DNA from: Candidatus Iainarchaeum sp.
Lineage (GTDB): Archaea > Iainarchaeota > Iainarchaeia > Iainarchaeales > GW2011-AR10
Direction of reading: 5' to 3'
DNA: 10,713 nucleotides
NCBI GenBank assembly: GCA_016186855.1
Contig: JACPKT010000101.1
Location: 1-10,713, forward strand
The notes under the pieces: generated by a model
The model's input: the letters and a program-made list of their open reading frames with translations, nothing else
Told to the model about the DNA's origin: nothing
Databases searched by the model: none
Position numbers and translations under genes: made by a program
In this document: piece after piece, positions 4,091 through 9,478 of the stretch
Position numbering within the stretch: the stretch's first letter is position 1
How the letters are laid out: every line of letters starts with the position of its first letter

Positions 4091-4645
4091 TTACCATGGT
4101 TTTCTTATTTTTCTCAGCTTTTTTTCCACTAATTGCCCAAAGCGGCTTATTTTTGGTTCTCCATGCCGTGCAAAAAAAGTTTCCCTTTTCTTTGAGCCTT
4201 TTTCAGGGTAAGGCGATTTCATGAACATTTTTGAGTACATTTGGGTTGCCTGTTGTGCCGTGAGCCGGACTCCTGTTCTTTTTGCTGCATTTCTGAATGC
4301 ATCAATTGCAGCCAAATTTCTTCTCTGTGAATATCCAGCCATTGGCGGGTGAGCCAAAAGCAGTTCAGAAATTTTTTCCTTGTTAAAGCCAAAAGATTTT
4401 CCAATTCTTAGCGCTTGGCGCAAAACCCGATTATGGTCTAAGCCCGCAAACGGGGGAAAAGAAAAAATTGCCTTTGCAGCCTGCTCACGAGAAACACCAT
4501 AAATTTGAGTAATAATCTTCAAACGAGTACCAAACTGGTTTTTTGACTGATTCTTTACCATTAAAACAAAATTATTATCATGAAGCAATAACTGAGCATG
4601 AGACCTCAAAAAACCCAAAGACTCCAAATCTGCTATGGACAACAT
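4091..4645 (-). CDS. Helical-repeat protein with mTERF-like repeats
   Basis: 184 aa and not a family I can name with certainty. It contains about 36-residue repeats. Unit 1 (residues 50-85) begins GVSREQAAKAI and carries FPPFAGLD. Unit 2 (86-124) begins GFNKEKISELL and carries HPPMAGYS. A weaker unit 3 starts GVRLTAQQA at 125 and carries SPYP. The pattern of a Gly-hydrophobic start, a short helix, a PP turn and two more helices resembles mTERF repeats, which in eukaryotic organelles form nucleic-acid-binding solenoids. The C-terminal 35 residues are strongly basic (KGSKKRE, VEKKLRKIRK), consistent with nucleic-acid binding; that is inference. There is no signal peptide or membrane segment. 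A TATA-like box about 26 nt upstream of the ATG implies a leaderless message. It is convergent with the DHH gene, with 52 bp between them. The minus strand has a T5 run about 7 nt after the stop that could serve as a terminator. Confidence 0.75.
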   Translation of the reverse strand: MLSIADLESLGFLRSHAQLLLHDNNFVLMVKNQSKNQFGTRLKIITQIYGVSREQAAKAIFSFPPFAGLDHNRVLRQALRIGKSFGFNKEKISELLLAHPPMAGYSQRRNLAAIDAFRNAAKRTGVRLTAQQATQMYSKMFMKSPYPEKGSKKRETFFARHGEPKISRFGQLVEKKLRKIRKPW

Positions 4646-5787: not shown

Positions 5788-6534
5788 TCACTTTTTCAAA
5801 TACTCAAACGCGTTTTTGAAGATTGCAAAACCGTCCCCGTAGCCCATTTTCCCAGTGCGAGTTGACTGCGGATGGTTAATTGCAAACAAGTGCTTTTCTG
5901 GGTGCGGCATGAGCCCAAAAACCCTGCCTGTTTTGTCACAAATTCCTGCAATGGAATCAACAGAACCGTTTGGGTTTTTCTCGTACTTGAACACCACCTG
6001 GTTGTTTTCGTAAAGCTTTTTTAGAATTTCAGCGCTTGCCGGCACAAACCTTCCTTCACCGTGGTTAATCGGGCACTCCATTGACTCAATTCCTTTTGTG
6101 AAAACGCATTTTGAATTTTTTTGCACCACAAGCCTCACCCACTCGTCCTGAAAATGCATTGACTCGTTAAAGGTTAGAGTTACGGTTTGCTCTTCAAAGA
6201 GACCGCGAAACGCAGGAAGCATGCCGCACTTTACGAGCGCCTGAAAGCCATTGCAAATCCCCAATATAAGTTTTTCCTGTTCAAAAAATTCCACCAGCCC
6301 GTCTTTTAGTTTGAGTTTGAGCTGGTTTGCAAAAACCTTTGCGCTGCCCAAATAGTCACCGAAAGAAAAGCCACCAGGCAAAACAAGCAGGGAAAAATCT
6401 TGCAAAGAAAGTTTTTTTCCCAAAACAGAATTCATGTGCAAGACCGTTACCTTAAAGCCAGCTTCTTTTAGCGCAAAAGCGGTTTCATAATCACAGTTTG
6501 TACCTGCAACTCGAAGCACCAAAGCCTTGACCAT
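5788..6534 (-). CDS. purQ: Phosphoribosylformylglycinamidine synthase, glutaminase subunit PurQ
   Basis: Class I glutamine amidotransferase that supplies ammonia from glutamine to PurL for the ATP-dependent conversion of FGAR to FGAM, step 4 of de novo purine synthesis in the cytoplasm. At 248 aa it is near the usual 220-260. The N-terminus has VLRVAGTNCDYET, typical of PurQ, then PGGFSFGDYL (53-62). The nucleophile Cys94 lies in GICNGFQAL and the His211/Glu213 pair in LMPHPEKH. The PINHGEGRF segment (about 155-163) is also characteristic. All catalytic residues are present. The ATG lies 4 nt after the purL stop, with a GGTGA Shine-Dalgarno-like motif overlapping that stop, so it is translated from the purSLQ message. 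It is last in the operon and ends one base from the convergent lipoprotein gene. Confidence 0.96.
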   Translation of the reverse strand: MVKALVLRVAGTNCDYETAFALKEAGFKVTVLHMNSVLGKKLSLQDFSLLVLPGGFSFGDYLGSAKVFANQLKLKLKDGLVEFFEQEKLILGICNGFQALVKCGMLPAFRGLFEEQTVTLTFNESMHFQDEWVRLVVQKNSKCVFTKGIESMECPINHGEGRFVPASAEILKKLYENNQVVFKYEKNPNGSVDSIAGICDKTGRVFGLMPHPEKHLFAINHPQSTRTGKMGYGDGFAIFKNAFEYLKK

Positions 6535-6538
6535 TTTT

Positions 6539-8941
6539 TCACCAGTTCAGTGTTTTTTTCCAGCTTTTTTTTAATTCAAAAATGTCCTCATTCAAAACGT
6601 TTTCTTTGCTAAATCCTTTCACTACAAGGCGCGGGTTTTTAGTCACTTCCCCAACTTTTGCAAAAGCAACCCCCCTCATTTTTTCCTCGAACTCTTTCTG
6701 CCTGTTTTTATTAACCTCTACAACAAACCTCGTGTTTGATTCCGAAAAAAGCGCGAAATCCTCGCGTAAAATTTTTTCACCAAAAGGAATTTTTGACAGG
6801 TCAATTTGCATTCCAAGCCCGCCTGCAAAAGCCATTTCAGCAAATGCGACTCCAAGCCCGCCGTCACTTGCATCATGGCATGAGAAAATAACTGCCCCGA
6901 CACTGTCGACTGGAAGCTGGTTTATTTTTGAAATTCGATTAAAAATTTTTTTTGCTTTCAGTGCATCCACTTTTGGAACATTATTGCCAATAAAACCATG
7001 CATTGAAAAGTACTGGCTGCCTCCAAGTTCTTGGAAAGTTTCTCCGATAACATAAACCGGGTTTCCGACTTGCTTGAAATCCATTGAAATCCTCTTGGAA
7101 CAATCCCGCATTATTCCAACGCTTGTAACCAAAAGCGTTCCAGGAATTGAAATGTGTGTTTTTCCGGATGTGAACTCGTTGTAAAGTGAATCTTTTCCTG
7201 AAATGAACGGCGTTTCAAAAGCTGTTGCAAAATCATAGCAGGCCATGCATGCTTTTACAAGCTCGCCAAGCTTTATTGGCCACATTGGGCTTGCCCAGCA
7301 AAAATTGTCAAGCAAAGCCATTTTTTCAAACTCTGCACCTGCACTCAAAGAATTCCTTATTGCCTCGTCAATGTTTGAAGCAGCCATCCAATATGGGGAA
7401 ATGTCACCATAAAACGGGTTAATGCCATTTGCAATCACCACTCCGTACGGCTTTTCGAGCAGCGGCCTTACAATTGCAGCGTCCGACGGCCCATCATTTT
7501 CCAGCCCGGATAAAGGCTTTAACACGCTTCCCCCCTGCACTTCATGGTCATATTGCCTGATTGTTGTTTCCTTTGAAGCAATGTTTGGCAACTGCAATAA
7601 CACGTGAAGTTTTTCTCCAAGGTTTTTTTCATGGAAGATTTGCGGTTCGTCAAAAACTGGCGCAACATATTTTGCCACCAGTCTCTGGCTTGGAAGCCCT
7701 TTGTGCAAAAAGCCAAGCTCGAGGTCTATAGCTTTGATTTGGCCAAAAAACACTTCCAGTTTTCTTGAAGAAGTGAATTCGCCAAGCACTGAAATCTCGA
7801 CTTCCTCAATTTTGGCTAGTTCAAAAAGTTCTGCAAGGTTTTCTCTTGGAACACTTAAAACCATCCGCTCTTGGCTCTCGCTTACCCAGATTTGCCACGG
7901 CAAAAGCCCTTTATACTTTAGAGGCACTTTTTTTAAGTCAACCCTTGCGCCAAGACCTTTTGCCATTTCCCCTATTGCTGAAGAAAAACCCCCTGCACCA
8001 CAGTCAGTAATGTTTGTGAACAATTTTTTGTCCCGCGCACGCAAAATAAAATCCATTAGCTTTCTTTCCTCAATTGCATTCCCTATCTGCACAACAGTTG
8101 TTGGAATGTTTTCCAGCAGGCCCGCTGAAGAAAAAGTTGCCCCATGGATTCCGTCATTGCCTGTCCGCGCACCACAAGCAACAATCAATTCACCAACAGA
8201 AGCTTTTTTTTGCACAAAGTTCTTTGGAATAATTCCGACTGCACCACAGTACACCAGTGGATTTGCCACAAACCTTTTGTCAAAAACAATTGCCCCGTTA
8301 ACCGTTGGAACCCCCATCTGGTTACCGTAATCACGCACACCAGCCCTAACGCCCTTAAAAATTCTTTTTGGGGCAAGCACTCCTTCCGGCACAAGTTCTT
8401 CACCAGTTTTGGGGTGTGCAAAGCAAAAAACATCAGTGCATGCAATGGGTTTTGCTCCCAGTCCTGCACCCAAAATGTCGCGCAGCACTCCTCCAACACC
8501 AGTGTTAGCACCACCATAAGGTTCAAGCGCACTTGGGTGATTGTGTGTTTCAACTTTAACTGCAATCCCGTGCTTTCTGTCAAGTGAAATTATGCCCGCA
8601 TTATCAGAAAACACTGACAGCAAAAAGCCTTTTTTTTGCGGAGCAATTTTTTTTGTCGCACCGGCAATGAATGTCTGAAAGAGGCTGTGGATTGTATGTT
8701 TTTGGTTTTCCTCAAACTCTATTATGCAGTTAAACACTTTGTGCTTGCAGTGCTCGCTCCAAGTCTGCGCAATTGTTTCAAGCTCTGCATCAGTGGGGCT
8801 TCTTTTCTGCCTTTCAAAATAGTCCTGCACTGCCTTCATTTCAGCAAGGTTGAGTGAAAAAAGCATTTTTTCGCTTAACGAAAGCAACTCTTTTTCTGAA
8901 AGACCCAACAACTTTACTTCACTTACTTCTTGTTCATCCAC
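6539..8941 (-). CDS. purL: Phosphoribosylformylglycinamidine synthase, synthetase subunit PurL
   Basis: ATP-dependent synthetase that amidates FGAR to FGAM, working with PurS and PurQ. It is 800 aa. Residues 1-60 form a linker (SLNLAEMKAVQDYFERQ, then SPTDAELETIAQTW) leading into SEHCKHK (62-68), a PurL hallmark with His64. HNHPS (133-137) and GGANTGVGGVLRD (143-154) form the nucleotide-binding part. The second half has the KPLSGLENDGPSDAA segment, NGINPFYGDISPYWMAAS, SGKDSLYNEF and HDASDGGLG. The linker and these segments resemble, to my recollection, the bacterial branch where PurS and PurL are fused, rather than the compact Bacillus-type PurL of about 740 aa. The start is a GTG at 8941 that overlaps purS by 8 nt, with a GGGG motif 7 nt upstream. 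No ATG exists in frame near it. Deleting one A from the run at 8942-8948 would fuse it in frame to purS. Confidence 0.95.
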   Translation of the reverse strand: MDEQEVSEVKLLGLSEKELLSLSEKMLFSLNLAEMKAVQDYFERQKRSPTDAELETIAQTWSEHCKHKVFNCIIEFEENQKHTIHSLFQTFIAGATKKIAPQKKGFLLSVFSDNAGIISLDRKHGIAVKVETHNHPSALEPYGGANTGVGGVLRDILGAGLGAKPIACTDVFCFAHPKTGEELVPEGVLAPKRIFKGVRAGVRDYGNQMGVPTVNGAIVFDKRFVANPLVYCGAVGIIPKNFVQKKASVGELIVACGARTGNDGIHGATFSSAGLLENIPTTVVQIGNAIEERKLMDFILRARDKKLFTNITDCGAGGFSSAIGEMAKGLGARVDLKKVPLKYKGLLPWQIWVSESQERMVLSVPRENLAELFELAKIEEVEISVLGEFTSSRKLEVFFGQIKAIDLELGFLHKGLPSQRLVAKYVAPVFDEPQIFHEKNLGEKLHVLLQLPNIASKETTIRQYDHEVQGGSVLKPLSGLENDGPSDAAIVRPLLEKPYGVVIANGINPFYGDISPYWMAASNIDEAIRNSLSAGAEFEKMALLDNFCWASPMWPIKLGELVKACMACYDFATAFETPFISGKDSLYNEFTSGKTHISIPGTLLVTSVGIMRDCSKRISMDFKQVGNPVYVIGETFQELGGSQYFSMHGFIGNNVPKVDALKAKKIFNRISKINQLPVDSVGAVIFSCHDASDGGLGVAFAEMAFAGGLGMQIDLSKIPFGEKILREDFALFSESNTRFVVEVNKNRQKEFEEKMRGVAFAKVGEVTKNPRLVVKGFSKENVLNEDIFELKKSWKKTLNW

Positions 8942-9419
8942 TTTTTTTCCCCGAAAAAATTTTTATTTCCTCAATCAGATGGTTAAACAATTTTTTTAAA
9001 GCAATTTCTCGCACAATTTCTTCTGTTAGAGAGCCTAAAAAAACAAAAAGCTTTTTGCTCGCAATGGTTTCGTTTTCTGCAAGTGGCCTGCCCAAAAAAT
9101 CTTTCACAGCACGCATTGCTGTTAGGCCAATATTGTCTGTCACACCGGGCGAATAGCCCACTTCAAGCGAAAAATCAAAATCCGAAAACAAGTGGTCGTT
9201 GACGGAAAATTCCTCGGTCACAGGGTCACAAAAAAGGTTTTTGCACAAAGCAATCACTTCTTCTTTTCCCAACCCCGCATTTATTTCAAAAACAGAGACA
9301 ACAAACAAGCCTTCGATTCCGGAAATTTTCAGGTCTTCTTTTATTTCATTTAAAACAGTTTTTCCAAGTAAATCCTTTTGTCTGTCCTTTGGGCCGACCT
9401 CGACCCTAAAGTGGCTCAT
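8934..9419 (-). CDS. purS: Double-length PurS subunit of FGAM synthase
   Basis: Structural subunit that bridges PurL and PurQ in the FGAM synthase complex. The protein is 161 aa, about twice the usual 80-85. Residues 3-75 read as one PurS unit: HFRVEVGPKD, a KEEVIALCKNLFCDPVTEEF end with the typical Asn/Asp-Pro-Val-x-Glu signature, and an alpha/beta rhythm. Residues 80-153 read as a second unit: FSLEVGYSPGVTDNIG and a closing FNHLIEEIKIF. Two PurS-like halves are known in the N-terminal domain of large fused PurL, where they replace a PurS dimer. That assignment is by pattern, without alignment. The ATG at 9419 sits about 27 nt from a TATA-like box, so the purSLQ message is probably leaderless. 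The gene ends in FSGKKSG at a seven-A run where the frame switches to purL. Confidence 0.85.
   Translation of the reverse strand: MSHFRVEVGPKDRQKDLLGKTVLNEIKEDLKISGIEGLFVVSVFEINAGLGKEEVIALCKNLFCDPVTEEFSVNDHLFSDFDFSLEVGYSPGVTDNIGLTAMRAVKDFLGRPLAENETIASKKLFVFLGSLTEEIVREIALKKLFNHLIEEIKIFSGKKSG
8942..8948 (-). other. Seven-A run at the purS/purL frame junction
   Basis: On the minus strand this is GGGG followed by seven A and then GTGG. In the purS frame it reads Gly-Lys-Lys-Ser-Gly-stop. With one A fewer it reads Gly-Lys-Lys-Val-Asp-Glu and continues straight into PurL. It is therefore a candidate slippage site, a split point, or a sequencing indel. Confidence 0.6.
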
Positions 9420-9440
9420 AAAAATTTCTTGCCCAAAAAA

Positions 9441-9452
9441 TATTTAATAAAG
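9441..9452. promoter_or_regulatory. Shared AT-rich box between purS and purF
   Basis: TATTTAATAAAG on the plus strand contains a TATA-like core in both directions: TTTAATAAA forward, TTTATTAAATA in reverse. It lies about 27 nt from the purS ATG and about 30 nt from the purF ATG. Both divergent transcripts could therefore use this 59-bp region, with a leaderless purS message and a leader of a few nucleotides for purF. Inferred from composition and spacing. Confidence 0.5.
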
Positions 9453-9461
9453 TGCCATCAA

Positions 9462-9473
9462 CACATTTATGTG
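9462..9473. promoter_or_regulatory. Small palindrome CACAT-TT-ATGTG, possible operator
   Basis: This is an inverted repeat with 5-bp arms and a 2-bp centre. It overlaps the predicted purF transcription start and lies upstream of the purS TATA-like box. That position would suit a purine-responsive regulator. No such regulator is visible in the window, and a repeat this short can occur by chance. Confidence 0.25.
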
Positions 9474-9478
9474 CTTTT

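Follow-up and report, generated by a model that had tools for sequence, protein, structure and literature searches.

Ordinary gene overlap most likely explains why purS and purL of an Iainarchaeum genome lie one base from fusion

Two genes that lie a single base away from encoding one fused protein may be a recently broken gene, a switch between two forms of an enzyme, the product of a sequencing error or simply a pair of overlapping neighbors. The purS-purL junction of a Candidatus Iainarchaeum sp. genome raises this question in a stretch of 10,713 nucleotides (the window; contig JACPKT010000101.1 of assembly GCA_016186855.1), where purS ends and purL begins beside a run of seven A. The relevant features of the locus are:

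8934..9419, minus strand: purS, a stand-alone tandem (two-copy) PurS of 161 aa with the C-terminus GKKSG-stop
6539..8941, minus strand: purL, the synthetase subunit of FGAM synthase plus an FGAR-AT linker domain, 800 aa from a GTG start
5788..6534, minus strand: purQ, the glutaminase subunit, 248 aa, above the cut-off of TIGR01737 and with PF13507
9479..10711, plus strand: purF, divergent from purS and extending past the window end, with GATase_6, GATase_7 and Pribosyltran domains
8934..8941, minus strand: purS/purL overlap of 8 nt, sequence GTGGATGA, holding the purL start and the purS stop
8942..8948, minus strand: run of seven A between GGGG and the purL GTG
8949..8952, minus strand: GGGG, a possible weak ribosome-binding motif for purL

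The genes purS, purL and purQ follow each other directly on the minus strand, and the purQ ATG lies 4 nt downstream of the purL stop. Within an open frame of 807 aa, purL scores 552.6 bits with the small-PurL model TIGR01736 (cut-off 525.75) and exceeds the cut-offs of PF18072, PF00586 and PF02769, while the other PurL model NF002290 stays below its own (540.6 versus 648). The PurS model PF02700 matches purS with 32.1 bits (gathering score 22.2). The computed masses of 17.9 kDa for PurS and 87.9 kDa for PurL agree with the separate products of roughly 18 and 88 kDa expected in the preliminary description of this DNA. Upstream, the divergent starts of purF and purS are separated by 59 nt (9420-9478) containing the AT-rich, TATA-like sequence TTTATTAAATATTTTTT, which suggests that the purS transcript is leaderless. 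A divergent purF is also present in two members of the window's family, similarly close in G001 and 1.3 kb off in G003. Elsewhere in the window, adjoining PmbA-like and TldD-like genes occupy 1-1083 and 1090-2751 of the minus strand; the TldD-like frame has a TTG start and its N-terminus may be overlong, given that similarity to G003 begins only at residue 43. An open reading frame of 184 aa at 4091-4645 shows a weak mTERF match below the cut-off (20.4 versus 23.1 bits), here in an archaeon.

On the minus strand the junction reads ...ATTTTTTCGGGG-AAAAAAA-GTGGATGA-ACAAG, confirming the 8-nt overlap at the GTG (8934-8941) and the run of exactly seven A (8942-8948) that had been noticed before. 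Read in purS, the run forms two lysine codons and the first base of a serine codon, and the first base of the purL GTG lies five bases upstream of the purS stop codon (TGA). As also described previously, skipping one A connects purS to the PurL frame, which is +1 relative to PurS; the joined product would measure 159 + 800 = 959 aa and not about 961. The run itself is no more than chance would place in the window, where seven-A matches on both strands number 63 compared to 54.8 +/- 11.5 in dinucleotide-shuffled sequence (at least 63 in 44 of 200 shuffles). On the sense strand, purS and purL together hold ten runs of at least seven A, two of exactly seven in purS and eight in purL, the latter including all five runs of eight. 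Lying one indel from fusion is likewise shared by 14 of the 17 split junctions that we compared, because open frames on the same strand overlap there in different frames; this distance follows from gene overlap and is not in itself a mechanism.

These junctions come from PurL searches covering 75 genomes of the order, 87 of the class and 87 of the phylum, with matches in 42, 43 and 43 of them, respectively. Among the 43 PurL-bearing genomes of the phylum, 17 (the window counted) have separate purS and purL genes, 22 have a fused gene and 4 are unclassed, namely G040, G058 and G037 (fragments) and G039 (31% identity). A scan of the genome contigs gave two loci, with L032 included and L033 (25% identity in its best segment) excluded. 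Fused frames are 988 to 1072 aa long in 21 of the 22 genomes, with 48 to 64 residues from the PurS end motif to the PurL start motif; in G043, the frame is truncated by a contig end and has PurS in the same frame. Separate genes are found in seven families (f1, f2, f6 with G024, f15, f16, f18 and f19) and fused genes in f3, f6 with G008, f7, f8, f13, f14, f17, f20 and f23. In the window's own family, the single-contig genome G001 as well as G003 are split, and the PurL search gave no match in G002. The order purS, purL, purQ is uninterrupted in all 15 split relatives with the three genes on one contig and spread over two contigs in G035. The earlier impression that the flanking domains resemble those of PurS-PurL fusions is borne out by the fused form in 22 of 43 genomes and by the fit of the PurS model to the N-terminus of large PurL. 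Its proposal to ask whether relatives carry a fused gene received a divided answer: they do in 22 genomes, and they do not in 16, including G001 and G003. Family f6 harbors both types on opposite sides of the PurL tree (split G024, locus L015; fused G008, locus L023), possibly through gene transfer or old paralogy.

What is conserved among the 17 split junctions is the closeness of stop and start. With purL starts taken as the ATG or GTG closest to a 4-nt overlap, by which alternative starts would be missed, eight junctions overlap by 4 nt (ATGA; G001, G003, G004, G017, G035, G041, G052 and G067), three by 8 nt (G000, which is the window, G018 and G029) and one by 11 nt (G024). Five do not overlap, with the genes touching in G044 and separated by 5 nt in G020, 10 nt in G021, 106 nt in G032 and 152 nt in G038. 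The spacing thus ranges from the 11-nt overlap to the 10-nt gap in 15 of 17 genomes, and the PurS ends, when aligned, fall no more than a few residues from the stop. The frame of PurL relative to PurS is -1 in ten genomes, +1 in six and 0 in one, with at least 4 changes over the 13 tree rows in which both frames are open together. At least seven A occur within the last 25 nt of purS in 5 of 17 (G000, G001, G017, G021 and G038). Across these junctions, neither a conserved slippery run nor a conserved frame direction, as expected of programmed frameshifting or slippage, was found; both vary even inside the window's family. Stop and start stay close while run and frame vary, a pattern that points to coupling and away from programmed shifting. 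The junction of G029 (locus L011) shares the GTGGATGA overlap and the KSG ending with the window, and its longest A run is 2; the other five f15 junctions are ATGA. Both the G029 and the window junction contain a buried ATGA, as though an older 4-nt junction had been moved by an indel.

We consider it very likely that purS and purL are two real genes, each translated on its own into a subunit of an FGAM synthase with three parts (PurS, PurL and PurQ), and that they belong to an archaeal purSLQ operon with termination-reinitiation at the junction. The genes overlap, lie in two frames and are conserved as two genes; their translational coupling we infer from where the start lies, from the closeness kept in relatives and from the literature on overlaps of this kind. 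In the excerpted text of Huber et al. 2023 (PMC10666635), spacings of 4, 1 and 8 nt overlap are the commonest across 1,695 prokaryote species and subunits of complexes are overrepresented among close gene pairs, with restart at 8-nt overlaps being less efficient than at shorter ones. In PMC3887535, again in excerpt, 4-nt overlaps make up about 45% of overlaps. The purL start falls, with its 8-nt overlap, within the range of about -8 to +6 nt from the upstream stop that characterizes termination-reinitiation. As in the overlaps described in that part of PMC10666635, the window has subunit genes of one enzyme on one strand of an archaeal genome that belong to the 8-nt class; it differs in starting with GTG instead of ATG and in that its coupling is predicted. 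The excerpt of PMC3711429 assigns transitions between frames to programmed frameshifting or translational coupling partly by adjacent start and stop codons and contains no mention of purL. On this reading, the ribosome would terminate purS at the TGA and then restart at the overlapping purL GTG, which may help to hold the amounts of PurS and PurL in step, and the seven A would serve as the end of the purS lysine codons and as spacer before the GTG.

Further hints at initiation of purL come from pairing with the 3' end of 16S rRNA, for which we used the anti-SD sequence AUCACCUCC from the 16S tail of G001. The 16S sequences of the relatives are archaeal, and the window's own draft assembly yielded no 16S match. 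Pairing of the 19 nt before the window's purL reaches -5.0 kcal/mol; the ribosome-binding signal of the window is unproven because 18-20% of random 19-mers drawn from this locus pair as strongly, and not being significant alone, it was rejected as proof of purL initiation. Taken over all 17 split loci, such pairing upstream of purL does show enrichment (Fisher p 2.8e-4), and the same holds without the window (p 3.3e-4); a version with 14 junctions (leaving out G021, G032 and G038) gives p 7e-5, and we prefer the value for all 17. Because of the gaps of 106 and 152 nt in G032 and G038, tight coupling is not universal.

The preferred reading of two coupled genes has to be weighed against slippage of RNA polymerase or ribosome on the seven A, which would add some fused PurS-PurL and thereby create a switch between split and fused enzyme. 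The run does precede the stop, one skipped A connects the frames, and fused homologues exist in 22 relatives. Joining would give a linker of about 34 residues compared to about 38 in a fused Peregrinibacterium (both by eye), and linker length was therefore dropped as an argument against fusion. The same one-base property occurs in another family at the G021 junction (locus L016), with seven A at the purS end and a 10-nt gap without overlap, and this counts against the reading by coupling. However, runs of at least seven A are missing from 12 of 17 split junctions, including that of G029 despite its identical overlap, and loss of one A fuses the genes in just 2 of 17, the window and G021. G001 and G017 have PurL in the -1 frame, and the run of G038 is followed by the 152-nt gap; in none of these three would the loss join the genes. 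The ten runs of at least seven A inside purS and purL, five of them of eight, would also be places where slipping does mostly damage. In a large fraction of bacterial genomes, A/T runs are evidently selected against at a length of nine, a length that varies with the organism (Baranov et al. 2005, PMC1088944, in the part used here), so that seven A are not disqualified by length alone. A switch conserved in evolution is contradicted by run lengths and frame directions that differ among close relatives, and the slippage switch of the preliminary description we set aside on the grounds that neither is conserved. Slippage as a source of fused protein strikes us as highly improbable, and the same low standing goes to its narrower form, a leak of one base in the window's lineage and, perhaps independently, in the G021 lineage that would yield mixed split and fused enzyme without being conserved in other relatives.

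The two remaining explanations are judged by the PurL tree. It comprises 39 PurL rows, namely 16 split and 22 fused ones of the phylum and a single fused Peregrinibacterium as the only outgroup; G035, whose PurL is divided between two contigs, is absent from the tree, with its junction counted among the 17. All split PurL fall on one side of a branch that the careful tree supports at 99/97 and the quick tree at 98, and the split/fused label changes only once, as it does in 98% of 200 bootstrap trees. The closest rows to the window are G003 and G001, both split. With split PurL of seven families on one side of the branch, the split appears to be old and no homopolymer error, and the tree speaks strongly against both sequencing error and recent fission. 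This unrooted tree, in which the outgroup has an end branch of 2.07, is compatible with fission first or fusion first; an old fission may have preceded the split group.

A homopolymer error of sequencing or assembly, by which the true gene would have six A and be fused, draws on the draft state of the assembly (60% complete, 160 contigs). The window nevertheless sits within the split group, its family members G001 and G003 show the split at the corresponding position, and a fused gene here would be a lone exception. With 16 other genomes split, this explanation from the preliminary description is very unlikely, slightly more so than slippage, and was set aside on the split relatives. Equally remote is the idea that a fused gene was broken recently and naturally in this lineage by insertion of one base into the A run, which was set aside on the tree: fused genes exist in the phylum and in a Peregrinibacterium, yet separate ones are shared by 17 genomes, which belong to seven families and fall on one side of the branch. 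From the earlier proposal of a recent split with reinitiation at the GTG, the separate genes hold, "recent" falls to the tree and the seven families, and the restart would follow from the predicted coupling. With relatives indicating two real genes, the A run next to the overlap probably reflects neither an error of sequencing nor a switch, and we regard an ordinary, translationally coupled overlap of two subunit genes as the most likely explanation.

Compared to known FGAM synthases, the window combines features of several. Its PurS of 161 aa consists of two fold units and exceeds the length below 100 aa that is typical of PurS (Brown et al. 2011, PMC3261824, in excerpt). The tandem form, about 160 aa long, recurs among the split genomes: in 16 of the 17 the aligned sequences resemble one another across both halves, and in G067 PurS is truncated by a contig end. 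We found no description of a stand-alone tandem PurS in the titles or abstract openings of the literature searched, and such a doubled, separate PurS seems mildly unusual. The archaeal mdPurL of Brown et al. has, in the same excerpt, about 200 extra N-terminal residues at the PurS position and a patchy distribution. The window resembles it in the matching order of the two parts and in the patchy pattern of fused and separate forms among relatives; it differs by comprising two genes with an intervening stop (at 8934), so that no single open frame spans the PurS and PurL parts, and by its tandem, stand-alone PurS. Like the PurLQS complex of Thermotoga maritima (3d54), it has PurS separate from PurL, plus PurQ, but the PurS chain of that complex counts 82 residues and not 161 in two copies, and PurL of the window has the linker domain PF18072. 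Large PurL (1t3t) also starts with a PurS-like N-terminus (model on residues 0-142), followed by PurL from residue 165, though as one chain where the window has three genes. On large PurL, the model of the 161-aa PurS fits the first 142 to 156 residues.

That purS and purL lie one base from fusion would thus be a by-product of overlapping subunit genes, as at 14 of the 17 related junctions. This archaeal phylum offers a tidy comparative case, its PurL tree having the fused PurS-PurL on one side and the separate genes on the other. The doubled, stand-alone PurS on the separate side is the piece that would be expected if a large-type PurL were divided.
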